From Burkholderiales bacterium (GTDB taxonomy: Bacteria > Pseudomonadota > Gammaproteobacteria > Burkholderiales > Casimicrobiaceae), in the NCBI GenBank assembly GCA_015075645.1, contig JABTUF010000003.1:248001-312000 (forward strand): 64,000 bases of DNA, given 5' to 3'. The notes under the pieces are model-generated. The model made no database searches, was not told where the DNA came from, and saw only the letters and a program-made list of their open reading frames with translations. This document shows positions 103-61,387 of the stretch, in pieces. Position numbers and translations under genes: made by a program. Position 1 is the stretch's first letter. Each line of letters begins with the position of its first letter.

Positions 103-110
103 CGGGGGAT

Positions 111-28791: not shown

Positions 28792-29055
28792 TCAGGAGTC
28801 AGAGGACAGACGCGTCGGTGTGTCCGGTGGCGGCGCATTCAGCGCCGCTGCGAGGCCCCCATTGGGCCCGGCGGCAGCCGCATGCCTTTCGCTTCAATGC
28901 GGCAACCCCCGCCAGCTCGGGTCTCGAGACATGGCGGTTCCGCAACGGCGCTCAATGCGCCGCCACCGGAATCACCTCGGCTTCTGTCCTCTGACTCCTG
29001 ATTCCTGAACCCGGCGCTACTGACAACTGACAACTGACAACTGTCAACTGACGCC
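28792..29055. repeat. Composite element: nested inverted repeats plus TGACAAC heptamers
   Basis: The outer arms are a perfect 19-bp inverted repeat (TCAGGAGTCAGAGGACAGA at 28792-28810, complement at 28983-29001). The inner arms are a 25-bp repeat with one mismatch (28823-28847 and 28946-28970; TCCGGTGGCGGCGCATT...). A run of TGACAAC units with degenerate ends follows (29021-29055). It fills the gap between the 564-aa gene and the convergent FAD oxidoreductase gene, and its end encodes that gene's last residues (SGVS) and stop. Confidence 0.92.
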
Positions 29056-30126
29056 TGACCCCCTCCGATGGAAGAACACGCGGCGGGCGAACGCGGCGAA
29101 CGCGCCGGTGCGGATCGCGAGGTCGAACAGGCGGTCGTGCTGCACCCGATCGTAGACCCGGCGCAGCCAGCGCTTGACGGTGAAGTCGGGCACTGGCGGA
29201 TCGACGAAGAGCGCCCCTCCGCGGTCTTCCGCCAGCGCGGCGGCGATCGCGCGTCCGGCACGAAAGCCGGAATCGAGCGCGGTGTGGATGCCGCCCGCGG
29301 TGAGCGGTGACACGAGTCCCGCGGCGTCGCCCACGAGCGTGACGCGATCGCCTGCGCGCGGACGCACGGGACCGCCGACCGGGATCAGCCCGGCGCGCTT
29401 CGCGACGACCGTTCCTCCAGCGAGCCCGATGCGTGGCGCGATCGCCTGCGCGAACGCTTCCGCGTCGGGGAAATCCCGTCGCGCGTCGCGGGCGCAGGCG
29501 AGCCCGACCTGGATGACGCCGACCCCGGCGAACGCCCAGCCGAGGTAGCCGCGCGCGCGTTTCGCGTCGAGGAAGCAGTGCAGGCGATCGGGTTCCGTGA
29601 GCGTCGCGCCGCGGATTTCGAGTTCGGCGCCGAACAGGAAGCGCGCGTTGATGCCGAGGCCGCAATCGCGTGCGACCCGCGACGCGGGGCCGTCCGCGCC
29701 GACGAGGAAGTGCGCCTCGCGCCCGGAACTCGTGCGCCAGCCGGACGACGTTCGCTCGGCGCCCGCCCAGGGCTCGCCGAGCGCCACCGCCGCCCCCGAC
29801 TCGCGGGCGCAATCGACGAGCCAGCGCATCATCGCCGGCGTGTCGGTCGCGAGAAAGAAGTAGCCGGGGGAGTCGAGCGCGAGGCTCGCACCGCCCGGCG
29901 CGTGCAGTCTCACCCCTTCGACCGGACGCACGATCGCCGGCGGGATCGGAGCGATCGCCTCGATCGACGAGAGAGCGTCCTTGACGACGATTCCGGTGGT
30001 GTGGAGCCGTTCGCCCGCGTCGCGCTTGCGCTCGAGCAGCGCGACCCGCGCGCCCGCGCGCGCGGCGGCGACCGCGCAGGCGATGCCGGCGAAGCTCGCG
30101 CCGGCGATCAGGAGGTCGTGGCGCAC
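29044..30126 (-). CDS. FAD-dependent oxidoreductase, geranylgeranyl-reductase-like
   Basis: A 360-aa flavoprotein with the FAD motif LLIAGASFAGIACAVAAARAG, the LVGADGPASRVAR block and VTLVGDAAGLVSPLTAGGIHTALDSG, the arrangement of the geranylgeranyl reductase / FixC-like family that reduces isoprenoid or similar double bonds. The substrate is unknown. It lies 12 nt downstream of tolA and may be the last gene of the tol operon. The final residues SGVS and the stop codon are encoded by a heptamer repeat; the same tetrapeptide ends HprK, from another copy. Confidence 0.85.
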   Translation of the reverse strand: MRHDLLIAGASFAGIACAVAAARAGARVALLERKRDAGERLHTTGIVVKDALSSIEAIAPIPPAIVRPVEGVRLHAPGGASLALDSPGYFFLATDTPAMMRWLVDCARESGAAVALGEPWAGAERTSSGWRTSSGREAHFLVGADGPASRVARDCGLGINARFLFGAELEIRGATLTEPDRLHCFLDAKRARGYLGWAFAGVGVIQVGLACARDARRDFPDAEAFAQAIAPRIGLAGGTVVAKRAGLIPVGGPVRPRAGDRVTLVGDAAGLVSPLTAGGIHTALDSGFRAGRAIAAALAEDRGGALFVDPPVPDFTVKRWLRRVYDRVQHDRLFDLAIRTGAFAAFARRVFFHRRGSGVS

Positions 30127-30138
30127 CGGTCGGGCGGA

Positions 30139-31005
30139 TCAGTCGAGCGGGCGGAACTTCAGTTCGAGTTCGCGCTGGAACATCTCCTGCCGATCCGGGC
30201 GCGGCAGCGGGCTCGACTTGAGGATCGCGCGGTTGACCGCATCGTCGTAGGCCTTGACGCCGCTGGACTTCGCCAAGCGCACGTCGAGGATCTCGCCGGT
30301 CGGCAACTGGATCACCCGGAACACCGCTTCCGGATTGCCGGGCATGCCCGGCGGCAGCGTCACGTTGCCGCGGATCTTCGCCTGGATGCGCCGAATCCAG
30401 TCGGCCTGCGCGGTCGCGCGCGCGTTCGCTTCCGCCTGTGCCTTCGCGCGCGCCTCCGCCTCGACGCGCGCCCTTGCGTCCTGCTCGGCGCGCTGCGTCG
30501 CCTCCTTCTGCGCCTGAGCGAGCATCGCGTCGGTCTCGCGTTTCTGGCGCTCGCGCGCCTCGGCCGCGCGCTTCTCGTCGGCCTTGCGTTTTTCGTCCGC
30601 GATCCGTTTTTCTTCCGCGGCCCGTTTCTCGTCGGCCTTGCGTTTCTCGTCGGCGAGACGTTCTCGCTCCCGCTCCCTGCGTTCCTCCTCCCGCTTCGCC
30701 TTGAGCGCGATCTCCGCCTGGTCGGGTTCCGCCTTCGGCGGAGGCGGAGGAGGGGGCGGCTCGACCTTCGGCTCGGTCCGGGGCGGCGGCGGCTCCACCT
30801 TCGGCTCAGGGTCGGGCGCGCGAACTTTCGGGGGCGGTGCGTAGAGCTCCGCGACGATCGGCTCGGGCGGCCGGCTCTGCCAGCGCACCGACCAGATCAG
30901 CACGCCGACGAACGCGACGTGCACGAGGATCGCGAGCACCAGCGCGAGCGTCCGGCCCGGACTCCGGCGCGCGCTGCCGTTGCCCGCACGGCGCTCGCCC
31001 TTCAT
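30139..31005 (-). CDS. tolA: TolA, periplasm-spanning subunit of the Tol-Pal system
   Basis: The 288-aa protein has one N-terminal membrane helix (TLALVLAILVHVAFVGVLIW), a Pro/Lys/Glu-rich stretch (PPPKVRAPDPEPKVEPPPP), a long charged helix of KRKADEKRAAEEKR-type repeats (about 105-205), and a C-terminal domain of the TolA/TonB fold (IRGNVTLPPGMPGNPEAVFRVIQLPTGEI...NRAILKSSPLPRP). It couples the TolQR motor to Pal and TolB during outer-membrane constriction. tolR lies 13 nt upstream. tolB and pal are not in the window. Confidence 0.95.
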   Translation of the reverse strand: MKGERRAGNGSARRSPGRTLALVLAILVHVAFVGVLIWSVRWQSRPPEPIVAELYAPPPKVRAPDPEPKVEPPPPRTEPKVEPPPPPPPPKAEPDQAEIALKAKREEERRERERERLADEKRKADEKRAAEEKRIADEKRKADEKRAAEARERQKRETDAMLAQAQKEATQRAEQDARARVEAEARAKAQAEANARATAQADWIRRIQAKIRGNVTLPPGMPGNPEAVFRVIQLPTGEILDVRLAKSSGVKAYDDAVNRAILKSSPLPRPDRQEMFQRELELKFRPLD

Positions 31006-31018
31006 CGCATGCCTCGGG

Positions 31019-31435
31019 TCACGTCTGCGGCGGCCGGGCGAGTAGTCCGACCTTGCGCACGCCGTTGCGTTGCAGGAGGTCGAGGATCGCGAGGACGTCC
31101 TCGTAGCGCGAGGCCTTGTCCGCGGCGATCACGACGCCCTGGTCGGGCGAGCGCGCCTGCTTCTCGACGATGCGCGCGACCAGTTCGTCGCGCGACAACC
31201 GGATCGGCGAAGTGCCGGCGGCCGCGCGGTCGCGCAACCACAGCGACTGATCGGTCCGCAGCGTCACCTCCATCGGCGCGACCGGCACGGTGAGCCTCGA
31301 TCCGACCGACGGCAGCGCGATCTCGCCGGGCGACACGAGCGGAGCCGTGACCATGAAGATCACGAGCAGCACCAGCATCACGTCGATGTACGGCACGACG
31401 TTGATCTGGCTCATCGATTTTCTCGCGCGGCGCAT
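31019..31435 (-). CDS. tolR: TolR (ExbD family), Tol-Pal motor subunit
   Basis: A 138-aa ExbD-type protein. The single helix carries the proton-relay Asp in VVPYIDVMLVLLVIFMVTAPLV, and the periplasmic domain ends VLAILDLLQRNGVRKVGLLARP. It forms the proton channel with TolQ. The gene is separated from tolQ by a 259-bp repeat element rather than the usual few bases. The base directly before its ATG already belongs to the heptamer array, leaving no recognisable Shine-Dalgarno sequence. A second ATG, seven codons in (MSQINVVPY), is an alternative start. Confidence 0.95.
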   Translation of the reverse strand: MRRARKSMSQINVVPYIDVMLVLLVIFMVTAPLVSPGEIALPSVGSRLTVPVAPMEVTLRTDQSLWLRDRAAAGTSPIRLSRDELVARIVEKQARSPDQGVVIAADKASRYEDVLAILDLLQRNGVRKVGLLARPPQT

Positions 31436-31694
31436 GTCAGTTGACAGTTGACAGTTGACAGTTGGCAGTTGCGGCGGCGATTCCCGCGGCCGCGCATCGA
31501 GCGCGGATGGGAGATCCCGTCGAGTGGCCAGAGGCGCGTCGCGACACGGCCTCGACCAGCACTCCCGGGACGACTACTCTTCGCATGCCATGCCGTCCTT
31601 CCAACGATGACGCCCCAACGGCGCTCGATGCGCCGCCACCGGAAACACCGCCGCAACTGACAACTGACAACTGACAACTGACAACTGACAACTG
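31436..31694. repeat. Composite heptamer / inverted-repeat element between tolQ and tolR
   Basis: It exactly fills the tolQ-tolR spacer. Left end: TTGACAG repeated, with one TTGGCAG (31441-31468). Right end: six CAACTGA-type units in the opposite sense (31654-31694), touching the tolQ stop codon. The interior contains a GGCGCTCGATGCGCCGCCACCGGA segment (about 31619-31642) shared with the copies at 28946, 59596, 59670 and 61318. The long inverted ends could pair across the element. Confidence 0.92.
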
Positions 31695-32363
31695 CTACCC
31701 CTGCCGCTGCAGGATGTTCGAAAACTCCTCGATGAACGTCTCGTAGCGCGTGGCGAGGCGGTCGACGTCGTGGGTGTAGCGGTTGTAGGCGACCACGGCC
31801 GGAATGGCGGCGAACAGGCCCATCGCCGTGGCGACGAGCGCCTCGGCGATGCCGGGCGCGACCTGGGTGAGCGTCGCCTGCGCGACGTTCGCGAGGCCGC
31901 GGAAGGCGTTCATGATCCCCCACACGGTGCCGAAGAGGCCGATGTAGGGCGACACCGATCCGACGCTCGCGAGGCCCGACAGGTGCGCTTCCATCGCGTC
32001 GATCTCGCGCTGGCAGGCCGCGCGCATCGCGCGACGCGCGGCGTCGAGCGTCAGCGTCGCGCTCGATCCCTGCCTCCGGTGCTTCGCGTACTCGCGGAAA
32101 CCCGCGACGAAGATCGGCTCGAGGCCGGCGCCGCTTCGCCCCTGCGCCGAGCGCTGGTAGAGCTCGTTCAGGTCGCCGCCCTTCCAGAACTCGTCCTCGA
32201 ACCGGTCGGCGTCGCGCTTCGCGGCGCGCAGTTGGAACATCTTGAGGAAGATCTGCCACCAGCTCCACATCGACAGCAGCGCGAGCAGCGCCATCACCGC
32301 CTGCACGACGAACGAAGCGTTGGCGACCATCGCGAGGAACGACAGGTCGGCGTGGACGTTCAA
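31695..32363 (-). CDS. tolQ: TolQ, Tol-Pal motor subunit
   Basis: A 222-aa MotA/TolQ/ExbB protein with three membrane helices: VVQAVMALLALLSMWSWWQIFLK near the start, and the pair around VGSVSPYIGLFGTVWGIMNAF and IAEALVATAMGLFAAIPAVVAYN with the conserved Thr and Pro residues. It drives TolA using the proton gradient. The family N-terminus (MNVHADLS) requires a TTG start at 32363, which overlaps the ybgC stop as TTGA. The stop codon abuts a heptamer repeat. Confidence 0.95.
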   Translation of the reverse strand: MNVHADLSFLAMVANASFVVQAVMALLALLSMWSWWQIFLKMFQLRAAKRDADRFEDEFWKGGDLNELYQRSAQGRSGAGLEPIFVAGFREYAKHRRQGSSATLTLDAARRAMRAACQREIDAMEAHLSGLASVGSVSPYIGLFGTVWGIMNAFRGLANVAQATLTQVAPGIAEALVATAMGLFAAIPAVVAYNRYTHDVDRLATRYETFIEEFSNILQRQG

Positions 32364-32772
32364 CGGTCATCCTCCAGCAGGCGGGCGAGTTCGGCGGGTA
32401 CGCGCGCGGGCTTCCAGCCTTCGCGCGCGAGGCAGGCGAGTCGGATGCGCGCGTCGACCAGCACCTCGCCGTCGCGCCGCACGCTCTGGCGTGCCACGAG
32501 TTGCGCGCGGCCGGCCGCCTCGAACGCGGCGGTGGCCTCGAGGCGGTCGCCCAGGCGGGCGGCGCCGCGGAAGTCGATCTCGGCCCGGGTCACGACGAAT
32601 ACGACGCCGTGCGCGCGTTCGAGTTCCGGCAGCGGCAGCGCATGGCGCTCGAGCCACTCGGTGCGCGCGCGTTCGAGGAACTTGAGGTAGTTCGCGTAGT
32701 AGACGACGCCGGCGGCATCGGTGTCCTCGTAGTACACCCGGACGGATAACGCGAACGGCCCGGCGGCGGGGT

Positions 32773-32776
<4 letters not shown>
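32360..32776 (-). CDS. ybgC: YbgC acyl-CoA thioesterase (Tol-Pal associated)
   Basis: A 138-aa hot-dog-fold thioesterase. The catalytic-site stretch [29 protein letters not shown] contains the conserved Tyr, Asp and the His/Tyr-type motif of the 4-hydroxybenzoyl-CoA family, and [16 protein letters not shown] follows. YbgC is the customary first gene of tol operons and acts on acyl-CoA or acyl-ACP near the inner membrane. It overlaps ruvB upstream (ATGA) and tolQ downstream (TTGA), so translation is coupled across all three. Confidence 0.93.
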
Positions 32777-33825
<1,049 letters not shown>

Positions 33826-33848
33826 CGCGCTATCTTAAGCCGCCCGGG

Positions 33849-34430
33849 TCAGGCCTTCGCGAGGCGCTTGAGCGCCTGCCGGATCCCGTCGGCGACCGCG
33901 ATGCCCTCGGGCAGGTCCTTCACCGCCGCGACCGCCTCCTTGTCGCTGTAGCCCAGCGCGACGAGCGCGTTCAGGATGTCCGACGACGCCGGCGCGGCCC
34001 GGTGCACGCCGACCGCGGACGAGAGATCCGCGCCGAGCCTGTCCTTCATCTCGAGGAGGATCCGCTCGGCGGTCTTCTTGCCGATGCCCGGGATCTTCGT
34101 CAGCCGGCCGGACTCCTGCAACGTGATCGCCTGCGCGAGTTCGGCGACCGACAGGCCCGAGAGGACCGCGAGCGCGATCTTCGCGCCGATGCCGCTGATC
34201 CGCGTCAGCAGCCGGAACGCGCGGCGCTCGCCCTCCGACCCGAAACCGTAGAGGAGGTGCGCGTCCTCGCGGACGACGAGGTGGGTGAAGAGCGTCACCT
34301 TCCCGCCGGCGTCCGGCAGGTTGTAGAACGTGCTCATCGGGACGTCGACCTCGTAGGCGACGCCGCCGACGTCGAGCAGGATCTGCGGCGGGTTCTTCTC
34401 GAGCAGGGTGCCGGACAGTCGGCCGATCAT
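33849..34430 (-). CDS. ruvA: RuvA, Holliday-junction binding protein
   Basis: A 193-aa protein in three parts: the OB-fold ([28 protein letters not shown]), two helix-hairpin-helix motifs ([17 protein letters not shown] and [20 protein letters not shown]), and the C-terminal RuvB-binding domain after a flexible linker ([19 protein letters not shown]). It tetramerises on four-way junctions. The ATG at 34430 fits the family; the frame stays open upstream as shadow. It is separated from ruvC by a HAD phosphatase gene. Confidence 0.96.
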
Positions 34431-34459
34431 CGTCGCGCGCCGTGCGAAGAGGTGGGCGA

Positions 34460-35167
34460 TTATCGCACGATCGTTCGATGGCGGGCGGTGCGCTCTCCGC
34501 CGATCAGCGCAACGAGATGGGGAATCGCATGCTGCAGCGTCTCCACGACCAGCGGCTTCGCGCGGAGCACCTCCTGCGAGGGCGGCCGCCCGTCCGGGAT
34601 CATGATCGGCGTCATGCCGGCGGCGAGCGCGCCCAGTACGCCCGCGTCCGAGTCCTCGAGCACCGCGCAGTCCGCGGGCGCGATGGCGAGACGTGCCGCG
34701 GCTTCGAGGAAAATGTCCGGAGCGGGCTTCCCGCGCGCGACCTCGTCGCCGCCGACGACCGCGTGGAGACGCGCAGCGAGGCCGGCGCTCTGGAGCTTCG
34801 CGAGCGCACGGCCACGCCGGGTCGAGGTGGCGACGGCGCGTGGAACGTCCGCGTCGTCGAGCCAGTCGAAGAGTTCGGCGACGCCGACCTTGAACGCGAG
34901 GCCCTCGCGCTCGACGATCCGGTCGTACGCGGCGTGCCAGCCATGCATCAGGCGGTCGACCGCGTCGGAGTCGCCGACGCTCGCGACCAGGAGCGCGCGG
35001 CAGTCGACGTAGGTGCGGCCGACCATCGACGGCAGCAGTGCTTCGTCGAACCGGACGCCGAGATTCGAGGCCGCTTCCAGCCATGCGCGCGCGGCGAGCG
35101 GCTCGGTGTCGAGCAGCGTGCCGTCCATGTCGAGGACGACGGCGCATAGCGGCAGGGGGTCGCGCAC
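34460..35167 (-). CDS. HAD-superfamily phosphatase (beta-phosphoglucomutase-like)
   Basis: A 235-aa HAD hydrolase: motif [15 protein letters not shown], motif [13 protein letters not shown], motif [15 protein letters not shown], motif [19 protein letters not shown]. The Gly-Lys-Pro-Ala-Pro and EDSxxGV set is characteristic of the beta-phosphoglucomutase and sugar-phosphatase branch. The substrate is unknown. It starts with GTG only 2 nt after the ruvC stop and is placed inside the ruvC-ruvA pair, so it is likely coexpressed with them; no recombination role is implied by sequence. Confidence 0.88.
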
Positions 35168-35169
35168 GA

Positions 35170-35715
35170 TCAGCGGGTGCGGATGCGCAGCATCCGTCCG
35201 CCGCGCATGCGCGGCGTGCCGCGCGCGAGCGCGCCGATGCCGGACGTGGCGTGCGCGTGGCAGATGGCCGCCGCCAGCGCGTCCGCCGCGTCGGGCGAAG
35301 GGAGGCCCGGCAGCGCGAGCAGCCGGCTCACCATCGCCTGGACCTGCGTTTTCGCCGCGCGGCCGCCGCCGACCACCGCCTGCTTGATCTGGCCGGCGGT
35401 GTACTCGTGCACCGGAAGTCCCGCGAGCACCGCGGCGGCGATCGCGGCGCCACGCGCCTGTCCGAGCGCCAGCGTCGACGTCGGGTTCACGTTGACGAAC
35501 ACGCGTTCGACGACGACTTCCGCCGGCGAGAACTCCGCGATCACGTGCGCGAGGTCGCGGACGATGACGCCGAGCCGCCCCGGCATGTCGCCGGTGCCGG
35601 TGCGCACGACGCCGCTCGCGACGCAGGCGAGCGCGCCGCCCGTGCAGTCGACGATTCCGAAGCCCGTCAGGCGCAACCCCGGATCGATGCCGAGGATGCG
35701 TCTGGCGGGAGACAT
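35170..35715 (-). CDS. ruvC: RuvC, crossover-junction endonuclease
   Basis: A 181-aa Holliday-junction resolvase of the RNase H fold. The acidic residues are in [14 protein letters not shown] (Asp), [23 protein letters not shown] (Glu) and [16 protein letters not shown] (Asp pair). The C-terminal tail is short and Arg-rich ([12 protein letters not shown]). It is the second gene after yebC, 54 nt away, which is a common order (yebC-ruvC-ruvA-ruvB), here with a HAD gene inserted after ruvC. Confidence 0.96.
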
Positions 35716-35769
35716 CCGGGATTCAATCGGCGACGGCCGTGCTCGCGCCGGGCTTCGCCGTCGCGGGCA

Positions 35770-36498
35770 TCAGGCGTCCTCGAACACCGCCGACGTGTAG
35801 ACCTCCTGCACGTCGTCCAGCGATTCGAGCGCGTCGATGAGCTTCTGCATGCGCACGGCGTCCTCGCCGGCCATCTCGACCTCGTTCTGCGGCTTCATCA
35901 CGACCTCGGCGACGTCGGGCACGAGGCCCGCCTTCGCGAGCGCGTCCTTGACCGCGACGAGATCGTAGGGGCCGGTGACTACCTCGATGCTGCCGTCGTC
36001 GTGGGTCACGACGTCGTCCGCGCCGGCGTCGATCGCCGCTTCCATCACCTTGTCCTCGTTCGTGCCGGGCGCGAACACGATCTGGCCGCAGTGCCGGAAC
36101 AGGAAGGCGACCGATCCGTCGGTCCCGAGGTTGCCGCCGTGCTTCGAGAACGCGTGGCGCACGTCACCCGCGGTGCGCGTGCGGTTGTCCGTCATGCAGT
36201 CGACGATCACCGCCGCGCCGTTGATGCCGTAGCCCTCGTAGCGGATCTCCTCGTAGCTCACGCCGTCCAGCTGGCCCGCGCCGCGCCGGATCGCGTTGTC
36301 GATCGTGTCCTTCGGCATGTTCTGCTCGCGGGCCTTGTCGATCGCGAGCCGCAGCCGCGGATTCGACGACGCGTCGGGACCGCCGAGGCGGGCGCTGACG
36401 GTGATCTCCTTGATGAGGCGCGTGAAGATCTTGCCGCGCTTCGCGTCCGCCGCGGCCTTCTTGTGCTTGATGTTCGCCCACTTGCTGTGGCCTGCCAT
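35770..36498 (-). CDS. yebC: YebC/TACO1-family protein
   Basis: A 242-aa protein starting [22 protein letters not shown], the unmistakable YebC start, with [14 protein letters not shown] and a central beta domain ([34 protein letters not shown]). The family has been described as a DNA-binding transcription regulator and, more recently, as relieving ribosome stalling at proline-rich stretches. A TATAAT on the minus strand at 36532-36537 lies 34 nt upstream, so yebC likely begins its own transcript leading into ruvC. Confidence 0.95.
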
Positions 36499-36531
36499 GA
36501 CGCGTCGACGAATCGGTGTGCCGGGGCCGGA

Positions 36532-36537
36532 ATTATA
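36532..36537 (-). promoter_or_regulatory. Probable -10 box of the yebC-ruv transcript
   Basis: The minus strand reads TATAAT here, 34 nt before the yebC ATG, between the LON-domain gene stop (36563) and yebC. No convincing -35 box is visible. Confidence 0.5.
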
Positions 36538-36562
36538 GCCTCCGCGGGCGGCGGGATCGGCC

Positions 36563-37183
36563 CTACAGCACGCCTTGCTGCTCGAGGAACCGCCGCAGCA
36601 CCGACAGCCGCACGACGGCATCGTTGATCTCGAGCATGCCCTGCTTGACGGAGAGCGGCAGCGGCAGCAGTTCGGCGAGCCGGTAGCCCACCCAGCTCGC
36701 GTCGCCGTAGTCCTGCACGGCCGGGAAATTCCGCGCGCCCACGCGCGCGGCCGCGAGTTCGAGCAGGCGCGCGAGCGGCTCCGCGTCCGACGGAAGCGGC
36801 ACTCGCGGCTCGTCCGGGATGTCGGCGACGTCCGCGACGACGAGGTGGTTCGGCTGCACCCGGTGCTCGCGCACCTGAAAGCGGGAGCCACCCTCGGTCG
36901 CGACGTGGAGGATGCCGAGTTCGGGCATGTCCCAGCCGGTGATGGCCGCGAGCGTCCCGACCTTCGAGAACGACGGTGTCCCGCCTTGCCCGGCCACCTC
37001 GTCACCCGAGGTGATCGTCACGACGCCGAACGGCCTGCGCTCCTTCATGCAGGTCTTCGTCATGTCGATGTAGCGCTGCTCGAACACCTTGAGCGGCAGG
37101 ATGCCGCCCGGGAACAGCACCGCGCGCAGCGGAAACAGCGGGATCGTGGCGCCGCGCGCGGGCCGCATCGAATGCCCGGTCAA
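36563..37183 (-). CDS. LON substrate-binding-domain protein (no protease domain)
   Basis: A 206-aa protein containing only the N-terminal LON domain: [32 protein letters not shown], then [12 protein letters not shown], and [11 protein letters not shown]. No ATPase or Ser-Lys protease part follows, so this is the stand-alone form whose function is unclear. The TTG at 37183 overlaps the rapZ stop (TTGA), but the ATG at 37168 ([13 protein letters not shown]) is also a plausible start. Coupling to rapZ suggests it is the end of the lpt-rpoN-rapZ block. Confidence 0.85.
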
Positions 37184-38019: not shown

Positions 38020-38063
38020 GTCAGGAGTCAGTTGTCAGTTGCCAACTGTCAACTGACTCCTGA
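38020..38063. repeat. Heptamer hairpin between hprK and rapZ
   Basis: Arms TCAGGAGTCAGTTGTCAGTTG (38021-38041) and CAACTGTCAACTGACTCCTGA (38043-38063) pair with one mismatch. It has the TCAGGAGTCAG ends of the 28792 element and the CAGTTGA heptamers, without the GGTGGCGGC core. It forms the whole hprK-rapZ spacer and the last five codons (SGVS and stop) of hprK. Confidence 0.9.
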
Positions 38064-39020
38064 GCCCTGATCGTCCATCAGCTTCTGCTGGCGCTCGATG
38101 AACTCCATCGTGCTGTCGATGCCGCGCTGGTGCAGCACGAAGTTGCGCACGGCGGCCTCGACGAGCACGGCGAGGTTGCGCCCCGCCGCGACCGGAATCG
38201 TCACGCGCCGGATCGGGACGCCGAGCACTTCCTGGGTGTTCGCATCGACCTTCAGGCGGTCGAGCTCGGAGAACGCCTCGTGCCCGTGGTCCTCGAGATG
38301 GACGATGAGCTTCAGGAGCTTGCGCGGGCGCACCGCGGTCTCGCCGAAGATCGTCCGGATGTTCAGCACGCCGATGCCGCGTACCTCGAGGAAGTCGCGG
38401 AGCACGGCGGGGCAGCGGCCTTCGACCGTGTCCGGCGAGATCCGGTAGAGCTCGACGATGTCGTCGGCGACGAGGCCGTTCCCGCGCGAGATGAGTTCGA
38501 GCGCGAGTTCGCTCTTGCCGATCGCGGACGCGCCGGTGATGAGCACGCCCATCTCGAGCACGTCGAGGAACACGCCGTGCAGCGTCGTCGACTCGGCCAG
38601 CACGCGCGACAGGTAGAGCCTGAACACGTCGACGACGTGCGGCGAGGGTTGGGGCGAGGTGAAGAGCGGGACGTGGTGCGCGTCGCAGTTCTCCTCGAGA
38701 TCGGGCGGCATGGCCTCGCCGTTCGCGACGACGATCGCGACGAGTTCGCCGTCGAACAGCCGGCGGAGCGACGAGGCGAACTCGCCGGGCGGCAGTGCCT
38801 TCAGGTGGGCGACCTCGGCCGCGCCCAGGAGCTGGACGCGGAACGGGTGGATGAAGTTCATGTGCCCGACCTGGCCGACGGTGGGTTTCATCGCGGCCTC
38901 GCCGGTGAGCACCCGGTTGCCGCCGTCGCGGCCCGCGACCCACTCGAGTCCGAGGCGCTCGCGGTTGTCCGCGTAGAGCCGCTCGACGCTGACCTGCCGC
39001 AGGTGCGTGTCGGCCGACAT
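38049..39020 (-). CDS. hprK: HPr kinase/phosphorylase
   Basis: A 323-aa bifunctional enzyme that phosphorylates and dephosphorylates a seryl residue of HPr. The N-terminal domain has GRDGGNRVLTGE-like and MNFIHPFRVQLLG stretches. The catalytic core has the P-loop GVLITGASAIGKSELALELI, GLVADDIVELYR, the HprK signature EVRGIGVLNIRTIFGETAV, and K/R-rich VLVEAAVRN. With PtsN and RapZ this is the regulatory PTS-Ntr locus of betaproteobacteria. Its last four residues (SGVS) come from a heptamer repeat. Confidence 0.95.
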   Translation of the reverse strand: MSADTHLRQVSVERLYADNRERLGLEWVAGRDGGNRVLTGEAAMKPTVGQVGHMNFIHPFRVQLLGAAEVAHLKALPPGEFASSLRRLFDGELVAIVVANGEAMPPDLEENCDAHHVPLFTSPQPSPHVVDVFRLYLSRVLAESTTLHGVFLDVLEMGVLITGASAIGKSELALELISRGNGLVADDIVELYRISPDTVEGRCPAVLRDFLEVRGIGVLNIRTIFGETAVRPRKLLKLIVHLEDHGHEAFSELDRLKVDANTQEVLGVPIRRVTIPVAAGRNLAVLVEAAVRNFVLHQRGIDSTMEFIERQQKLMDDQGSGVS

Positions 39021-39031
39021 CGTGCCGCCGG

Positions 39032-39490: not shown

Positions 39491-39513
39491 CGTGGAGGTC
39501 CCCGAAATGACGA

Positions 39514-39537
39514 CCGGCGGACCGCGGAGTCCGCCGG
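39514..39537 (-). other. Stable hairpin ahead of ptsN
   Basis: A perfect 9-bp inverted repeat CCGGCGGAC / GTCCGCCGG with a 6-nt loop lies 24 nt before the ptsN start in the 158-nt hpf-ptsN spacer. It lacks a T-run, so attenuation, processing or translation control are all possible. A TAGAAT (minus strand of 39561-39566) upstream could be a -10 box for ptsN. Confidence 0.4.
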
Positions 39538-39648
39538 CGAGGGTCGAGGACCGATCGTCGATTCTACACGCGGGGGGCGCCCTCGACGGACGTCGCACCG
39601 CGTGCGTCCGGGAAGGGCGCGACGCCCGGATGCCGGGCCGCGGGACGT

Positions 39649-44323: not shown

Positions 44324-44324
44324 G

Positions 44325-53108: not shown

Positions 53109-53116
53109 ACCACACC

Positions 53117-53380: not shown

Positions 53381-53530
53381 GAAAGCCCGAATCCCGCCGC
53401 GGTTCGCCCGGCGGTTCGCCGGTCCGCCGCCCGGTTCGCGGGCGATGCTCGGCGCATGGCTACGCTCGCCCCCTTCGCGCTGCCGCTCCGCGCGGCATCG
53501 GCCCGGCCTGACGCTTCGCGGAACGACGTC

Positions 53531-54784
53531 GTGGACAAGCTCGTGATCGAAGGCGGCCGGCCCCTCGAGGGCACGGTCGCCGTCTCGGGCGCGAAGAACG
53601 CCGCGCTGCCGATCCTCTGCGCGGCGCTCCTCGCCGACGAGCCGCTCGAGCTCTCGCAGGTGCCGAAACTGAACGACGTGCGCACGATGCGCACGCTGCT
53701 GTCGCAGATGGGCGTGCGGATCGACGAGACGGCGGGAGGCGCGCTCGCGCTCGATGCCTCCCGCATCGAATGGCCGCTCGCGCCCTACGAGCTCGTCAAG
53801 ACGATGCGGGCGTCGATCCTCGTGCTCGGCCCCCTGCTCGCGCGCTGCCGCGAGGCGCGGGTGTCGCTGCCCGGCGGCTGCGCGATCGGCCTGCGGCCGG
53901 TCGACCAGCACGTCAAGGGGCTGCAGGCGATGGGCGCCGAGATCGACCTCGACCACGGCTACATCGGCGCCCGCACGACGCGGCTTCGCGGCGCGCGCTT
54001 CGTGTTCGACGTCGTCACCGTGACCGGCACCGAGAACCTGCTGATGGCGGCCACGCTCGCCGAGGGGACGACCGTCCTCGAGAACGCGGCGCGCGAGCCG
54101 GAAGTCGTCGATCTCGCGCAATGCCTGGTTTCGATGGGCGCGCGCATCAGCGGAGCGGGCAGCGACCGCATCGTCGTCGAGGGCGTGGAGCGCCTGGGCG
54201 GAGCGAGGCACCGAATCATGCCGGACCGCATCGAAACCGGCACGTTCCTCGCGGCGGTGGCGGCGGCGGGCGGCGACGCGACGCTCACCGGCGCGCGCGC
54301 CGACACGCTCGAAGCGGTGATCGACAAGCTCGTGGAAGCCGGCGCGAGGATCGACGTCGCGCCCGGCGCGCTGCGGATCGTGCGCGACGGGCCGCTCGTC
54401 GCGGCGAACGTGCGCACCGCGCCCTATCCCGCGTTCCCGACCGACATGCAGGCCCAGTTCATGGCGCTGGCGACGCGCGCTTCGGGCACGTCGGTCGTCA
54501 CCGAGACGATCTTCGAGAACCGGATGATGCACGTGCAGGAACTCGTCCGGCTCGGCGCCGACATCGAGGTCGAGGGGAGCACCGCGATCGTGCGCGGCGT
54601 CGGACGCCTGACCGGCGCGAACGTCATGGCGACCGATCTGCGCGCCTCGGCCTGCCTCGTGATCGCCGGGCTCGTCGCCGACGGGGCCACGACGATCGAT
54701 CGGATCTATCATCTCGACCGGGGCTACGAGCGGCTCGAGGAGAAGCTCGCCGCGCTCGGCGCTTCCATCCATCGCGTCAAATGA
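53531..54784 (+). CDS. murA: UDP-N-acetylglucosamine 1-carboxyvinyltransferase
   Basis: It catalyses the first committed step of peptidoglycan synthesis and is the fosfomycin target. The catalytic Cys117 is in [16 protein letters not shown]; also present are [17 protein letters not shown], the [10 protein letters not shown] block, PDRIETGTF and the [12 protein letters not shown] and [13 protein letters not shown] stretches. The GTG at 53531 gives VDKLVIEGG, in register with E. coli MurA (417 aa). An upstream ATG at 53456 would add 25 residues. Confidence 0.95.
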
Positions 54785-54837
54785 GCGATGACGCGAGCCA
54801 TGCGGGTCATTGAGGCGGATCGGCGGGGGCCTGCCCC

Positions 54838-55701
54838 TTGGGGACGGAGGCCGCCCGCTGCGATGCGCGGAGTGACAAACTGACAGACTTGGGTGCCTCG
54901 CCGCTCGCCCGTCCGACGCCGCAGCCCGGACGCTACGACCCGGAGTTGCTGTTCCCGGTCGATCGTGCCGACGCGCGCGCCGCGATCGGGCTCGCGCCGC
55001 CGTTGCCGTTCGTCGGCCACGACGCGTGGACCGCGTGGGAACTCACCTGGCTCGACGCGCACGGCCGCCCGCAGGCGGCGGTGGCGCGTTTCGAGGTTCC
55101 CGCCGCGTCGCCGCGCATCGTCGAGTCGAAGTCGATGAAGCTCTTCCTCGCGTCGCTGCACGACGAACGCTTCGAGTCGCGGGAACAGGTCGTCGCGGCG
55201 ATCGGACGCGACCTCGGGCGCGCGACGGGCGCGGAGGTGCGTGTGACGCTCGCGCTGCCGCCGGCCTATGGCGGGCTCGCCCGCGAACCGATGGATGGGG
55301 CGTCGATCGACCAGGCGCCGCTCGTCTCGGTGCCCGACGCGCCGGACGCCTCGCGCCTCGCGACCACGCCGTGGGACGGCGACGAGACGCTCTTCACCTC
55401 GCTGTTCCGTTCGGTCTGCCCGGTCACCGGCCAGCCCGACTACGCGGCCGTGAGCCTGCGCTACCGCGGCCCGCGCATCGAGCGCGGCTCGCTCCTCGCC
55501 TACCTCGTCGGCTACCGGCACCACCCCGGTTTCCACGAGCATTGCGTCGAGCGCATCTTCGTCGACGTCGCGGCCGCGTGCCGTCCGAGCAAGCTCGCCG
55601 TCGAGGCGCGCTTCACCCGTCGCGGCGGGATCGACATCAATCCGTTCCGTTCGAGCGAGGCGACCTGGCGCGCGCGCTCGGCGCCCGACGTGCGCCAATA
55701 G
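54838..55701 (+). CDS. queF: NADPH-dependent 7-cyano-7-deazaguanine reductase, type II
   Basis: It reduces preQ0 to preQ1 in queuosine synthesis. The long (bimodular) type is shown by [17 protein letters not shown] in the N-terminal half, the nucleophile in [16 protein letters not shown], and [18 protein letters not shown] and [13 protein letters not shown] near the end. The start is uncertain: TTG at 54838 (287 aa) or TTG at 54889 (270 aa); no in-frame ATG exists. It is 53 nt after murA. No other que gene is nearby. Confidence 0.92.
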
Positions 55702-55811
55702 CGCGGGCCGGCCCGCCGGCCGCGACATCACGTTGCCCGGCGATCGATGAGGCGTGGCCCGGCGACGGCCCGGGAGGCGAGCGCGGGCGAACGGGTAGAA
55801 TCCCCGGTTCC

Positions 55812-56471
55812 ATGTCGCTCACGATCGCCCTGTCGAAAGGACGCATCCTCGACGAAACGCTGCCGCTCCTCGCGCTGGCGGGGATCGTGCCGGCCGAGGA
55901 TCCGGACGTCTCGCGCAAGCTCGTGCTGCCGACGAACCGGAGCGGCGTGTCGCTGATGGTCGTGCGGGCCACCGACGTGCCGACCTACGTGCAGTGGGGC
56001 GCCGCCGACGTGGGCATCGCGGGCAAGGACGTGCTGCTCGAGCACGGCGGCGACGGGCTCTACCAGCCGGTGGATCTCGGCGTCGCGCGCTGCCGGATGT
56101 CGGTGGCCACGCGCCGCGGCTACGACTGGGCCGGCAACGTGCAGCGCGGCGCGAGGATCCGCGTCGCGACCAAGTACGTGACGATCGCCCGCGAGCACTT
56201 CGCCTCGAAGGGCATGCACGTCGACCTGATCAAGCTCTACGGGTCGATGGAACTCGCGCCGATCTCGGGGCTCGCCGACGCGATCGTCGACCTCGTGTCG
56301 AGCGGCAACACGCTCAGGGCCAACGATCTCGTCGAGGTCGAGACGGTCATGCCGATCACCGCGCGGCTCGTCGTGAACCCGGCCGCGCTCAAGCTGAAGC
56401 GCGACGTCGTCAAGCCGCTCGTCGACGCGATCGCGGCGGCCGTGCCCGCGCGCGCGGAGGCGGCGGCGTGA
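55812..56471 (+). CDS. hisG: ATP phosphoribosyltransferase, short form
   Basis: First enzyme of histidine synthesis. The 219-aa protein shows [34 protein letters not shown], and the PRPP loop near [23 protein letters not shown]. The short form lacks the C-terminal regulatory domain and needs HisZ, which is not encoded in this window. A TAGAAT lies 10 nt before the ATG. The stop overlaps hisD (GTGA). It starts the his operon. Confidence 0.95.
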
Positions 56472-57808
56472 CCGTCGTGTTTCGCCGGCTGTCGACCGTC
56501 TCGGCCGAGTTCGACGCCGAACTCGGGCGGCTGATCGCGTTCGAGGCGGGCCAGGACCCGGACATCGACGACGCGGTCGCGCGCATCGTCGACGAGGTGC
56601 GCCGGCACGGCGACGACGCCCTCCTCGAACTCTCCCGCAAGCATGACCGGCTCGAGTTGCCCTCGGCGGCGGCGTTCGAGATCTCGGCCGACGAGATGCG
56701 CCGCGCGTACGAACTCCTGCCCGACGGCCAGCGCGACGCGCTCGCGGCCGCCGCGGCGCGCATCCGCGCGTTCCACGAGGCGCAGAGGGCGCACGGCGGC
56801 GGCTTCGAGGTCGTCGAACCCGACGGCACCGTGCTCGGCCAGCGCGTCACGCCGCTCGACCGCGTCGGCATCTACGTGCCGGGCGGCAAGGCGGCGTACC
56901 CGTCGTCGGTGCTGATGAACGCGATCCCGGCGCAGGTCGCCGGCGTGCGCGAGATCGTGATGGTGGTTCCGACACCGGGCGGCGTGCGCAACGCGCTGGT
57001 GCTGGCTGCGGCGCACCTCGCGGGTGTGACGCGCGCGTTCACGGTCGGCGGCGCGCAGGCGATCGCCGCGCTCGCGTACGGCACCGAGACGATCCCCGCG
57101 GTCGACAAGATCTGCGGGCCGGGGAACGCCTACGTCGCGGCGGCCAAGCGCCGGGTGTTCGGCGCGGTCGGCATCGACATGGTGGCCGGCGTCTCCGAGA
57201 TCCTGGTGATCGCGGACGCGTCGGCGAATCCGGACTGGGTCGCCATCGACCTCTTCTCGCAGGCCGAGCACGACGAGATGGCGCAGGCGATCCTGCTCAC
57301 CCCCGACGACGCGCTGCTCGACGCGGTGGACGCGGCGATGCACCGCGCGCTCGCGTCGATGCCCCGGGCCGCCGTCATCGAGGCGTCGTTCGCGAAGCGC
57401 GGCGCGCTGGTGAAGGTTCGCGACCTCGCGGAAGCCTGCGAGGTCGCGAACCGCATCGCGGCCGAGCACCTCGAACTCGCGGTGGCCGACCCCGACGCGC
57501 TCCTGCCGCGCATCCGGCACGCCGGCGCGATCTTCGTCGGCCACCACGCCTGCGAGGCGCTCGGCGACTACTGCGCCGGACCCAACCACGTGCTGCCGAC
57601 CGGCCGCACCGCGCGCTTCTCGTCGCCGCTCGGCGTCCACGATTTCCAGAAGCGCTCGAGCGTGCTGCGCATCTCCGCGGCCGGCGCGCGCACGCTCGCG
57701 CCGATCGCCGCGACGCTCGCGCACGGCGAGGGCCTCACCGCGCACGCACGCTCGGCGGAAGCCCGGCTCGCCGCCGCGGCAGGGCGGCGGGAACCGGCCG
57801 CGACATGA
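56468..57808 (+). CDS. hisD: Histidinol dehydrogenase
   Basis: A 446-aa zinc enzyme performing the last two oxidations, histidinol to histidine. Blocks include [68 protein letters not shown] (zinc-ligand Gln/His) and [22 protein letters not shown] overlaps the hisG stop, and ATGA joins it to hisC. Confidence 0.96.
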
Positions 57809-58911
57809 GCGGCCCGGCGCCCGTTCGCGCGGTCGAGGCGTCGGCGGTCGAGGCCCGCGTGGCCGCGACCATTCGAGGGGAGATCCTCGCGACGACGAGC
57901 TACGCGACCGCGAAGCCCGCGGGCATGATCGAGCTCCACGCGAACGAGAATCCCTTTCCGCTGCCCGCGTCGCTGCGCGGCGAACTCGCCGCCGTGCTGG
58001 CGGAGGCGGCGGTGAACCGCTATCCCGAAGGCGCGGGTGAAGGCGTGAAGCGCGCGCTCGCCGCCGCGCTGCCGATCCCGCACGGCGCGGAGATGGTGCT
58101 GGGCAACGGTTCCGACGAACTGATCCAGGTGATCACCGCGGCGGTGGCGCGCCCGGGCGCCGCGATCCTCGCGCCCGATCCGACCTTCGTCATGTACCGG
58201 ATCTACGCCGCGCAATCGGCGGTGCGCTACGTGTCGGTGCCGCTGCGCGCGGATTTCACGCTCGACGACGAAGCGTTCGCCGCGGCGATCGGACGCGAAC
58301 GTCCCGCGCTCGTGTGGCTCGCGAGCCCGAACAACCCGACCGGGCGCGCGCTGCCGCGCGCCTCGATCGAGCGCATCCTCGGCGCCGCGCCCGGCCTCGT
58401 GGTCGTCGACGAGGCCTACGCCGACTTCGCCGGGACCTCCTTCCTGCCGCGCGTGCTCGACTTCCCCAACCTGGTCGTGCTGCGGACGCTCTCCAAGATC
58501 GGGCTCGCCGGCGCGCGCCTGGGCTACGCGGTCGGGCATCCGGCCTGGATCGCGGAACTCGACAAGGTGCGATCGCCCTACAACGTGAACGCGCTGACGC
58601 AGGCCGCGGTCCCGGTGGTGCTCGCTGCCGCCGACGTGCTCGCGGCCCAGGTGGCGAAGATCGTCGCTGAACGCGCGCGCCTCGCTGCCGCGCTCGCCGC
58701 CGTCCCCGGCGCGGAGGTGACGCAGAGCGACGCGAACTTCCTGCTGGTGCGCGTGCCCGATGCGGACGCCATGGCGACGCGATTGCGCGCCGCCGGCATC
58801 CTGGTGAAGAATCTGCACGGCGGGCATCCGCTGACCGCGAACTGCCTGCGGATCACCGTCGGCACGCCCGCCGAGAACGATGCGCTGGTTCGCGCGATGA
58901 CCCCGCCATGA
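57805..58911 (+). CDS. hisC: Histidinol-phosphate aminotransferase
   Basis: A 368-aa PLP enzyme (class I/II fold). [16 protein letters not shown] at the start, the GSDELIQ helix, [24 protein letters not shown], and the PLP lysine in [28 protein letters not shown] closes it. It transaminates imidazole-acetol phosphate. It is coupled to hisD and hisB by ATGA overlaps. Confidence 0.95.
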
Positions 58912-59513
58912 ACGCCCCGCCTCCTGCCCGCACCGCCCGCGTCGAGCGCCACACGCGCGAGACCCGGATCGTCGTCGAACTCGGCCTCGACGGCACCGGG
59001 CGCTCCGACCTCGCGTCGGGGATCCCGTTCCTCGACCACATGCTCGACCAGGTGGCCCGCCACGGTATGGTCGACCTGACCGTCCGAGCCGAGGGCGATC
59101 TCGAAATCGACGCGCACCACACGGTCGAGGACATCGGCATCGTGCTCGGGCAGGCGCTCGCGAAGGCCGTCGGCGACAAGACCGGGCTCGCGCGCTACGG
59201 CCACGCCTACGTGCCGCTCGACGAGGCGCTCTCGCGCGTCGTGATCGACCTGTCGGGGCGGCCGGGCCTCGAGTTCCACGTCGCCTTCACGCGCGCGCGC
59301 GTCGGGACCTTCGACGTCGATCTCACGCACGAATTCTTCCAGGGATTCGCCAACCACGCGTTCGCGACGCTGCACGTCGACAACCTGCGCGGCGCGAACG
59401 CCCATCACCAGTGCGAGACGGTGTTCAAGGCGTTCGGGCGCGCGCTGCGCATGGCGGTCGCCCGCGATCCGCGCGCGGCGGGGGCCATTCCCTCGACCAA
59501 GGGAGCGCTTTGA
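58908..59513 (+). CDS. hisB: Imidazoleglycerol-phosphate dehydratase
   Basis: A 201-aa monofunctional HisB (no phosphatase domain). The manganese-binding motifs are [45 protein letters not shown] and [17 protein letters not shown]. Histidinol-phosphate phosphatase must therefore be encoded elsewhere. The TGA stop lies in the first heptamer of the repeat element that follows. Confidence 0.96.
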
Positions 59514-59737
59514 CAGTTGTCAGTTGTCAGTTGACAGTTGGCAGTGGTGGCGGCGCTTCCGGTGGTACTACGCCTTTCAACTGACTACCGAACCCGGCGC
59601 TCGATGCGCCGCCACCGGAGACACCGGCATCACTGCCAACTGTCAACTGTGAACTGACTCCTGAACCCGGCGCTCGACGCGCCGCCACCGGAGACTCCGT
59701 CGCTACTGCCAACGGACAACTGTCAACTGAACACTGA
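59511..59737. repeat. Composite heptamer / inverted-repeat element between hisB and hisH
   Basis: It begins inside the hisB stop (TGACAGTTGTCAGTTG...) and ends CAACTGAACACTGA directly before the hisH ATG. The interior holds a GGTGGCGGCGC half and two direct copies of CCCGGCGCTCGAYGCGCCGCCACCGGAGA (about 59590 and 59664), each followed by heptamers. It fills the whole spacer of an otherwise overlapping operon. Confidence 0.92.
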
Positions 59738-60376
59738 ATGATCGCGGTCATCGACTACGGCATGGGCAACCTTCGCTCGGTGGCGAAGGCGCTGCGGCAT
59801 GTCGCGCCGGCGAGCGAGGTCGTCGTGACGGGCGACGCAGCGGTCGTGCGGCGCGCGGAGCGCGTCGTGCTGCCGGGGCAGGCGGCGATGCCGGATTGCA
59901 TGCGCTGCCTGGATGCGTCCGGGCTGCGCGAAGTCGTGATCGAGGTCGCGCGCGACCGGCCGTTCCTCGGCGTCTGCCTCGGGCTGCAGATGCTGTTCGA
60001 CGCGAGCGAGGAAGGGCCGACGGCGTGCCTGGGGATCCTGGCCGGACAGGTCGTGCGTTTCCGCGACGACGCGATGGCGCTTCCGGACGGCGAGCGCCTG
60101 AAGGTCCCGCACATGGGCTGGAGCCGCGTGCACCAGGCGCGTGCGCACCCGCTCTGGGAGCGCATCGCCGACGACGAGCGCTTCTACTTCGCGCACAGCT
60201 ACCATCCGGTCCCGGGGGACCGGAGCGTGGTCGCGGCCACCACCGACTATCCCGCGCCGTTTACTTGCGCGGTGGCACGGGCTAATATCTTCGCGACCCA
60301 GTTCCATCCGGAGAAGAGCCACCGCGCCGGTCTGCAGTTGCTCGCCAACTTCGTCGCCTGGAACGGACGCGCCTGA
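59738..60376 (+). CDS. hisH: Imidazole glycerol phosphate synthase, glutaminase subunit
   Basis: A 212-aa class I amidotransferase that supplies ammonia to His[13 protein letters not shown] at the start, the oxyanion strand ([11 protein letters not shown]), the nucleophile [13 protein letters not shown], and the His-Glu pair in [10 protein letters not shown] are intact. The region before the ATG is the repeat end, with no visible Shine-Dalgarno site. Confidence 0.95.
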
Positions 60377-60420
60377 CGGGCGCGCCCTCCGCACCGCCGC
60401 CATCCCCCACGCCCGCGGCC

Positions 60421-61167
60421 ATGCTGATCATTCCCGCCATCGACATCAAGGACGGCCACTGCGTCCGCCTGAAGCAGGGCGACATGCAGGCGGTGACCGT
60501 GTTCTCCGAGGATCCCGCCGCCATGGCGCAGCACTGGCTCGAGCGCGGCGCGGAGCGGCTGCACATCGTCGACCTGAACGGCGCGGTCGCCGGGCGGCCG
60601 AAGAACGAACTCGCCATCCGCGAGATCGTGAGCGTCGTCGGCGAGGAGATCCCGGTCCAGCTGGGCGGCGGCATCCGCGACCTCGACACGATCGAGCGCT
60701 ACCTCGACGACGGCATCACCTACGTGGTGATCGGCACCGCCGCGGTGAAGAATCCGGGCTTCCTGCACGATGCGTGCTACGCGTTCCCCGGCCACATCAT
60801 CGTCGGCCTCGACGCGCGCGACGGCAAGGTGGCGACCGACGGCTGGTCGAAGATGACCGGCCACGACGTGATCGACCTCGCCCGCAAGTTCGAGGACTAC
60901 GGCGTCGAGGCGGTCGTCTACACCGACATCGGGCGCGACGGCATGCTGACCGGCATCAACGTCGAGGCGACGGTGCGGCTCGCGAAGGCGATCAAGGTGC
61001 CGGTGATCGCGTCCGGCGGCCTGTCCTCGCTCGACAACGTCCGCACGCTGATGAAGCACGAGGCCGACGGCATCGTCGGCGCGATCGCGGGCCGGGCGAT
61101 CTACGAGGGCACGCTCGACTTCGCGCAGGCGGTCGAGGCGGGAAGGCAGAAGTCAGTTGACAGTTGA
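60421..61167 (+). CDS. hisA: ProFAR isomerase
   Basis: A 248-aa (beta-alpha)8 barrel. [19 protein letters not shown] carries the first catalytic Asp; [15 protein letters not shown], the [14 protein letters not shown] stretch and [12 protein letters not shown] (second Asp) and [11 protein letters not shown] follow. The final residues SVDS and the TGA come from the heptamer repeat (TCAGTTGACAGTTGA) that starts at 61153. 44 nt separate it from hisH. Confidence 0.95.
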
Positions 61168-61387
61168 CAGTTGGCAGTTGGCAGTGGCGCCGGAGTCTCC
61201 AGTGGCGGCGCGTGGAGCGCCGCTGCGAGATCGTGGTAGGTCAACCGTCAGCCTGCGAATTTCGATGTGTCGACGCGAAGAGCGTCCGACTCAAGTCGGA
61301 CCTGCCGCCGACCCGCAACGGCGCTGAATGCGCCGCCACCGGAAACGCCGACCGCACTGTCAACTGCCAACTGCCAACTGAACACTG
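61153..61387. repeat. Composite heptamer / inverted-repeat element between hisA and hisF
   Basis: It begins inside hisA with CAGTTGA heptamers and ends CAACTGAACACTG right before the hisF ATG. It contains a CCAGTGGCGGCGC...GCGCCGCTGCG arm (about 61199-61227) and the facing CGCAACGGCGCTGAATGCGCCGCCACCGG (about 61314-61342). The centre (about 61232-61312) is different from other copies and holds its own palindrome CCGACTCAAGTCGG. Confidence 0.92.

Follow-up and report, generated by a model that had tools for sequence, protein, structure and literature searches.

Inverted heptad arms in five spacers of the window

We analysed a 64,000-nt stretch of DNA (the window; C3:248001-312000) from a 4.39-Mb Burkholderiales genome in 14 contigs (G000), in which elements built of 7-base units (heptads) lie between hisB and hisH, hisA and hisF, tolQ and tolR, hprK and rapZ, and at one further site. 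The closest named relatives of this genome by HisA are uncultured betaproteobacterial assemblies, at 85% identity or less, so that a betaproteobacterial host is likely. A reading made from the letters alone (the sequence-only reading) had listed these elements at 28792, 31436, 38020, 59511 and 61153, and all five are present there. Pfam matches back the names given to the neighbouring genes: HisB, a HisH-like amidotransferase, HisA/HisF, TolQ- and TolR-family proteins, RapZ and HprK. The proposal that the elements split operons with otherwise overlapping genes holds in part: 4-nt overlaps occur at 57805/57808, 58908/58911 and 32360/32363, but the element at 28792 is flanked by convergent reading frames.

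Four of the elements (28792, 31436, 59511 and 61153) have a common GCGCC hairpin core, as had been suggested, and that at 38020 consists of arms only. The order of parts is a 7-base-unit arm, a 14-nt linker, a CCGGTGGCGGCGC-loop-GCGCCG hairpin, a variable interior, and then the inverted repeat of these parts (Table 1). The variable interior may contain other repetitive extragenic palindromic (REP) hairpins, and many copies are halves; the elements at 31436 and 59511 each have one degenerate left core. The two ends are indeed inverted. The heptamer itself is not fixed: CTGTCAA, CTGACAA, CTGCCAA, CTGACTC and CTGTCCT all occur, and CCCTTCC-type arms are present in other spacers. As transcripts, all five window elements are predicted to fold, at z -5.7 to -13.3.

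Table 1. Heptad arms, hairpin cores and elements of the window (window coordinates; FAD, flavin adenine dinucleotide)
Feature	Position	Strand	Remarks
Element 1 (28792), left heptad arm TTCAGGAGTCAGAGGACAG	28791..28809	none	between convergent reading frames
Element 1, left hairpin core CCGGTGGCGGCGC-ATTCA-GCGCCG	28824..28847	+	
Element 1, right hairpin core	28946..28969	-	inverted
Element 1, right heptad arm CTGTCCT CTGACTC CTGATTC CTGAA	28984..29009	none	
Further CTGACAA array	29020..29061	none	contains stop codon of FAD-protein frame (29044)
tolQ/tolR element, left heptad arm	31437..31468	none	
tolQ/tolR element, right hairpin core	31619..31642	-	
tolQ/tolR element, right heptad arm CAACTGA x5.9	31654..31694	none	adjoins tolQ stop codon
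hprK/rapZ element	38020..38073	none	arms only; hairpin fold (z -5.7); contains hprK stop
hisB/hisH element	59511..59737	none	left arm, degenerate left core, two tandem right halves
hisA/hisF element	61153..61387	none	full-length copy; left arm contains hisA stop codon
GGGAACA x6.4 heptad array	106..150	none	sixth heptad site, absent from the sequence-only reading; downstream partner degenerate (by eye)

A dispersed family with a fixed module

The elements recur throughout the genome. A search with a three-unit array (ACTGACAACTGACAACTG, at most 2 mismatches) gave 123 forward and 123 reverse matches, compared to 9 and 11 for the reversed control, and the exact core 14-mer GCGCCGCCACCGGA gave 24 and 24 (control, 3 and 1). 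BLASTN with the 61153 element returned 110 matches in the 4.39 Mb, palindromic copies being counted on both strands; full-length copies lie at five other places, at 68–74% identity. We then took a census of modules on 683,554 bp (~684 kb) of G000 sequence, picked mainly around matches. It yielded 131 core-like sites, 71 of which have an arm outside. The other 60, mostly armless, are largely chance matches in G+C-rich sequence. The 71 armed half-modules fall at 53 loci (20 '>', 16 '<', 14 '><' and 3 of other arrangement), and arms-only elements exist besides them. The distance from the last CAG of the arm to the core is constant in 65–68 of the 71, and 8 of the 14 linker positions carry a single base in 64–69 of them; arm and hairpin therefore form one unit.

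Seven-base periodicity also emerged from a scan over all lags. At a strict threshold, lags 7, 14 and 21 gave 8, 6 and 3 runs in the window (other lags, at most 2) and 4, 5 and 5 in ten other 20-kb pieces, which were only partly blind as two include arrays already known (other lags, at most 3). With looser thresholds, lags that are multiples of 3 equal or exceed 7, and 7 and 14 are prominent only among the remaining lags. Multiples of period 3 are expected from coding sequence.

Arm units, inversion and pairing

Arrays were also collected by period alone; 200 were found, and 145 were kept after removal of those above 80% G+C without CCTTC/GAAGG. Among neighbouring arrays at most 450 bp apart, 40 pairs have a left CAG/GAAGG and a right CTG/CCTTC arm, 3 have the reverse polarity, 11 are direct and 2 unclear. 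The CAACTG class accounts for 34 of the 40 inverted pairs, and unrelated heptads such as GGGAAGG/CCCTTCC take the same inverted layout in other spacers. Four of the window elements are in this set; the 28792 element is outside it because its short left arm falls below the array threshold. A separate search demands CTG by design, so that the 97–100% CTG among its units is built in; position 4 of these units is A in 43%, T in 40% and C in 15%, and C occupies position 5 in 95%. CTGACTC is frequent among the outer units and CTGNCAA among the inner ones. At C5:395001-395250 (stretch L209, 5002-5251), a small gene, probably rpmJ (L36) from its sequence, occupies the loop that two inverted heptad arms enclose.

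For the 36 of 40 pairs with known direction, predicted pairing of own arms was -45.1 kcal/mol, compared to -35.3 kcal/mol when arms were re-dealt among elements, a difference reached in 0 of 20,000 shuffles.

Placement at gene edges and in rRNA

Distances to genes were taken for 38 of the 40 arm pairs, the two in 23S rRNA being excluded. Gene edges came from a simple codon-likelihood caller, so individual values are approximate. Median gaps between the outer edges of the elements and the neighbouring genes are 2 and 0 nt, and the earlier impression that the elements fill their spacers is borne out by a median fill of 0.96 (from 0.17 to values above 1 in cases of arm–gene overlap). An arm contains the stop codon in hisA, in hprK and in the FAD frame, and the first bases of the 59511 element overlap the hisB stop codon, as they do in the congener G019. 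Flanking genes are co-directional in 28 of 32 cases compared to 127 of 168 in the background (raw counts); 3 of the 32 are convergent and 1 divergent.

Every one of the four spacers of the rRNA operon contains a heptad array. The tRNA-Ile/tRNA-Ala spacer is an arm, 45 nt and an arm, nothing more, and the arms touch both tRNA ends. The 23S rRNA gene itself contains two arm pairs of the same arm type as the mRNA spacers. In the Rfam alignment these inserts start in the hairpin loops that follow model positions 583 and 1218, presumably those of helices 25 and 45 to judge by position. The first insert is predicted to form a nearly unbroken stem (-122 kcal/mol over 195 nt), and the second encodes a 122-aa protein matching PF05635, the 23S rRNA-intervening sequence protein family (107.7 bits). 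Five of 64 family genomes, G000 included, gave a match in this 23S search, and the members G022, G033 and G037 have short helix-25 loops. G000 encodes RNase III.

The sequence-only reading had proposed that insertion is targeted to stop/start junctions or is only tolerated there. Targeting is not a general rule, given the exact abutment to tRNA ends and the 23S hairpin loops. For the same reason tolerance, rather than a codon, looks like the common factor.

Presence and turnover in relatives

The family is specific to this lineage. The sequence ACTGNCAACTGNCAACTG has 195 matches in G000, compared to 0–4 per genome in 21 congeners, none in 26 further genomes of the family and 1 match in one of 32 genomes of other families. 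A general CTG-period-7 pattern spreads wider, with 193 matches in G000 (control 24), 97 in G001 (29), 35 in G002 (0) and 12 in G019 (0). In G036, of another genus, it has 993 (control 315), and the same search found none in three of five genus mates. The pattern is present, patchily, in 43 of the 274 genomes of the class, G000 among them, and in some the control scores just as well. TGACAAC is therefore one local unit of a wider habit. Inversion is not borne out as a general property: among the 22 arrays of G036 there are 3 inverted pairs of neighbours, and five other class members have mainly single arrays, from few distinct places and in some cases cut by contig ends. The G036 stretches (L210-L215) show mainly single CTGANNN arrays amid degenerate periodic modules, CTTTGCGTTCTTTGCGG and CTTCGCGCCTTCGCG.

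Empty orthologous spacers were found. In 11 of 19 other congeners the hisA stop and the HisF motif are only 2–14 nt apart, counting the start codon, and composite elements occupy this junction in G000 and G019. At hisB/hisH (18 genomes, sorted by eye), inverted heptad arms occur in G000, G001, G003, G004, G009 and G015, built in several congeners of different units; G019 has a decayed composite, and the spacer is 63 nt or shorter in eight of the 18. In the 17 hisB/hisH spacers other than that of G000, period 7 occupies 109 windows in 5 spacers and period 14 occupies 74 windows in 6, other periods at most 6 windows; shuffled spacers gave a mean of 0.12 spacers with a period-7 run. Period 7 is weak in the hisA/hisF spacers of congeners (2 of 19 spacers, 3 windows). 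On contig C188 of G001 (L153/L384), hisA and the hisA/hisF spacer are folded back at the contig end, probably an assembly artefact at inverted GGCGGTA arms.

Arms were also compared across genomes. For the 8 of 18 hisB/hisH spacers of at least 100 nt, own arms pair better overall than arms combined across genomes (477 of 100,000 permutations). The excess is strong in G000, G001 and G015 and slight in G004 and in G002, which is without heptads by eye. At tuf/rpsJ and hisA/hisF, own arms beat cross-genome arms in 4 of 5 cases; in the exception, at tuf/rpsJ, the G000 left arm pairs slightly better with the G010 right arm. In the G000–G019 comparison at hisB/hisH, own arms are better in G000 and not in G019.

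In the close congener G001 we examined 20 stretches, picked from known array places, and treated separately contig C319, the one G001 place known to have CTGNCAA arms. The 20 stretches have the same hairpin module with CTGATCC, CTGTCCT, CTGATTC and CTGTTCC units, and inverted polarity prevails 12 to 0. CTGNCAA makes up 157 of 352 units in G000 and 0 of 94 in the G001 stretches. On C319 (stretch L146, 1418-1528), a module-free, arms-only CTGNCAA element has an interior almost identical, by eye, to the one in the G000 element that separates tRNA-Gly from tRNA-Tyr (C5:427408-427524), and it was likely inherited from the common ancestor of G000 and G001. The CTGNCAA unit thus seems to be older in the arms-only element and may later have taken over the composite arms in G000.

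Transposase genes

G000 has two Y1 transposase genes, one flanked by REPs of other sequence (GTCGGGCTTCAGCCCGAC) and one by a 22-nt inverted repeat. Around the gene at C1:34721 (stretch L177, 2180-3770; C1:34.2-35.8k), many GTGG/GTAG-GTCGGGCTTCAGCCCGAC REPs lie on both sides, including an array of ~112-bp period; this is a REPtron-like layout. The gene of stretch L176 lies between perfect copies of its 22-nt repeat at 3198-3219 and 4083-4104. No autonomous element with the ends of our repeat was found, and no GCGCC core was seen beside either gene. Two window repeats touch on these loci. At 19496-19600, a 22-bp tandem repeat (GGCTTCAGCCCGACGCGTATCC x4.8) includes the REP palindrome present beside the REP-associated tyrosine transposase (RAYT) gene, and at 12767-12805, CAGACTCGATTGATC repeats have CAGACTCGATTGA in common with the 22-nt inverted repeat of L176.

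Discussion

Relation to known repeats

The elements combine features of several repeat classes. They are tandem repeats in that head-to-tail 7-nt units recur at many intergenic sites. They are not heptanucleotide simple sequence repeats standing alone, given the 71 half-modules at fixed spacing, although the arms-only elements are such arrays. GTGG followed by CGGCGC-loop-GCGCCG is a tagged palindrome of the REP kind, and terminal inverted repeats are present as in miniature inverted-repeat transposable elements. The inverted doublet that defines REPINs (REP doublets forming hairpins) is not the main unit here (14 of 53 loci '><', 36 single, 3 other), and neither Y1 gene is flanked by a matching REP, as a REP–RAYT system would have it. 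The two rRNA inserts, stem-closed and located in what we take to be the helix 25 and 45 loops, agree in site and structure with 23S intervening sequences.

Heptanucleotide over-representation in bacteria has been noted for years and has no accepted cause. The short tandemly repeated repetitive (STRR) heptamers of cyanobacteria are heptanucleotide arrays of several sequences. They resemble the present arms in this variety, and are mentioned for Calothrix in a study of Xanthomonas; an inverted composite is not described for them in the available text (PMC4692102). The sequence-only reading knew of no such composite in a betaproteobacterium. Inverted heptamer pairs as such are known: inverted cases among the GGGAATC heptamers of Xanthomonas number 70 in one species and 75 in another (Rehm et al. 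2015, PMC4692102). Those arrays are likewise mainly intergenic, many 0–50 bp from open reading frames, and change in sequence and length at the same positions; they differ in having a single G-rich unit, discussed as a G-quadruplex, and the portions of that report available describe no hairpin module, rRNA insert or unit replacement. The TAACTGA repeats of Beggiatoaceae (MacGregor 2015, PMC4679880) are CTGANNN-type heptamers beside start codons, patchy across phyla, but they are direct repeats with a single inverted case, and no module is described in the accessible text. REPs, bacterial interspersed mosaic elements and REPINs with RAYT share the tetranucleotide-tagged GC palindrome, the inverted doublets and the intergenic location (PMC3733652, PMC3116915, as far as excerpted); unlike them, our elements have heptad arms outside the palindromes and more singles than doublets, and no matching RAYT was found. 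Stem inserts in helix 25/45 regions, one with a 23S-intervening-sequence-protein gene here, parallel known intervening sequences, for which these regions were surveyed in Campylobacter (PMC8708148, PMC2801512, in their available parts), but here the stem consists of the heptad arms also found filling mRNA spacers. Correia/NEMIS elements are also inverted-repeat elements, which RNase III can bind and which can be cleaved or protected; heptads are not stated in the available part of that account (PMC2649163). A literature search that covered subscription journals little found no heptad arrays tied to 23S intervening sequences or to a REP-like module. Nor did it return the composite form or a module kept constant while its units change.

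Origin and tolerance of the elements

We lean modestly towards the following reading. Four of the five spacers contain one dispersed GC-rich hairpin repeat with inverted 7-base-unit arms, and the fifth the arms alone; the repeat probably spread by DNA-level copying, and a predicted RNA stem, which RNase III would cut, is the likely reason why inserts are tolerated beside genes and within 23S rRNA. A REPIN-like, transposase-dependent step would place new copies of the REP-like module. The arms may then lengthen and change by 7-base slippage and be homogenised among copies, as suggested by the two close congeners in which one module goes with different units. Gene edges and rRNA loops would be the places where inserts survive, since folding of the RNA can set them aside there, and folding with RNase III cleavage might separate neighbouring cistrons or rRNA pieces by analogy with 23S intervening sequences, which RNase III excises (PMC8708148, available part). 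By connecting intergenic repeats with 23S intervening sequences, these elements offer an enzyme already known for RNA processing as a possible explanation of tolerance in essential operons.

Several observations weigh against this reading. The sequence-only reading had suggested looking for a Y1 or other transposase with the same ends; none was found in G000, and the GCGCC core was not seen beside either Y1 gene. No target-site duplication was readable with empty sites compared at hisA/hisF and hisB/hisH only, in diverged congeners. Of the 53 loci, 36 have a single armed half, and own arms show no excess pairing at hisB/hisH in G019, G009 and G003. The element shared by C319 and the tRNA-Gly/tRNA-Tyr spacer means that not every element is a recent copy. 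Within the CTGNCAA class, own-arm likeness (0.689) barely exceeds that between elements (0.674; 2,684 of 20,000 shuffles), and the variable base differs more between own arms than in shuffles (0.916 compared to 0.822), leaving fine arm-to-arm concerted evolution unsupported. Finally, in the 36 of 40 pairs with known direction, sense pairing, which G-U pairs could make stronger than antisense, was stronger in 14 and weaker in 22, so RNA-level selection by this asymmetry is unsupported. Because own arms pair far better than re-dealt ones, CTGNCAA-class own arms are no more alike, and sense pairing is not favoured, DNA-level processes are preferred over strong selection on an RNA stem.

That preference bears on the proposal that the arms are kept as stems used to cut or protect operon transcripts, as in Correia elements. 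Strong predicted folding (z -5.7 to -13.3), best overall pairing of own arms, recurrence of arms at hisB/hisH with different units and the placement of rRNA inserts in native hairpins would all suit an RNA function; with no G-U strand asymmetry (14 to 22 of 36), with 3 of 32 gene pairs convergent and 1 divergent, and with many congeners lacking an element at the same junction, we regard it as unlikely. Comparably doubtful, and more far-reaching, is a class of insert defined by geometry rather than by sequence, in which inverted arms in 7-base steps occupy gene edges and 23S loops, the unit is rewritten genome-wide between close species, and module, register, inversion and site are kept. An unrecognised DNA process writing 7-base steps into both arms would produce such inserts, and, if this were so, no distinction would be left between mRNA-spacer elements and rRNA intervening sequences. 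The genus offers a natural series for such questions, the same operon junction being bare, arms-only or composite, with units differing in close species.

Plain STRR-like microsatellites, growing by 7-base polymerase slippage wherever harmless and inverted only secondarily, would leave unexplained why inverted pairs prevail 40 to 3, why the hairpin module lies at a fixed distance and why there are outer CTGACTC units. This makes them a rather improbable source, even though lags 7, 14 and 21 are prominent when the threshold is strict, G036 has only 3 inverted neighbour pairs among 22 arrays, and heptamers are over-represented in many bacteria, for which a polymerase-footprint slippage model is available (PMC4692102, PMC4679880, in the parts available). 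An ordinary REPIN family driven by a resident RAYT has in its favour the GTGG-plus-palindrome core, a form similar to that of the GTGG/GTAG REPs around the C1:34721 Y1 gene, and the 14 loci that are head-out doublets. We give it little credence, as the RAYT-flanking REPs are GTCGGGCTTCAGCCCGAC rather than the GCGCC core, singles outnumber doublets, and heptad arms are not mentioned in the available description of REPINs (PMC3116915). Binding-site arrays for a CTGA-recognising regulator would accord with the 34 of 40 arm pairs in the CAACTG class (period-only search) and with the repeat-binding protein proposed for TAACTGA (PMC4679880, available part), but CCCTTCC, CGGATNC and GGCGGTA arms are without CTGA and rRNA and tRNA spacers are among the positions, so that this idea is very hard to credit; the 97–100% CTG lends it no support because CTG was built into that search.

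Other features of the window

Two further features were noted. At 5032-5386 on the minus strand lies a class A RNase P RNA (Rfam, 205.6 bits), and a 107-bp tandem repeat of 2.3 copies with 75% matches occupies 22192-22434.

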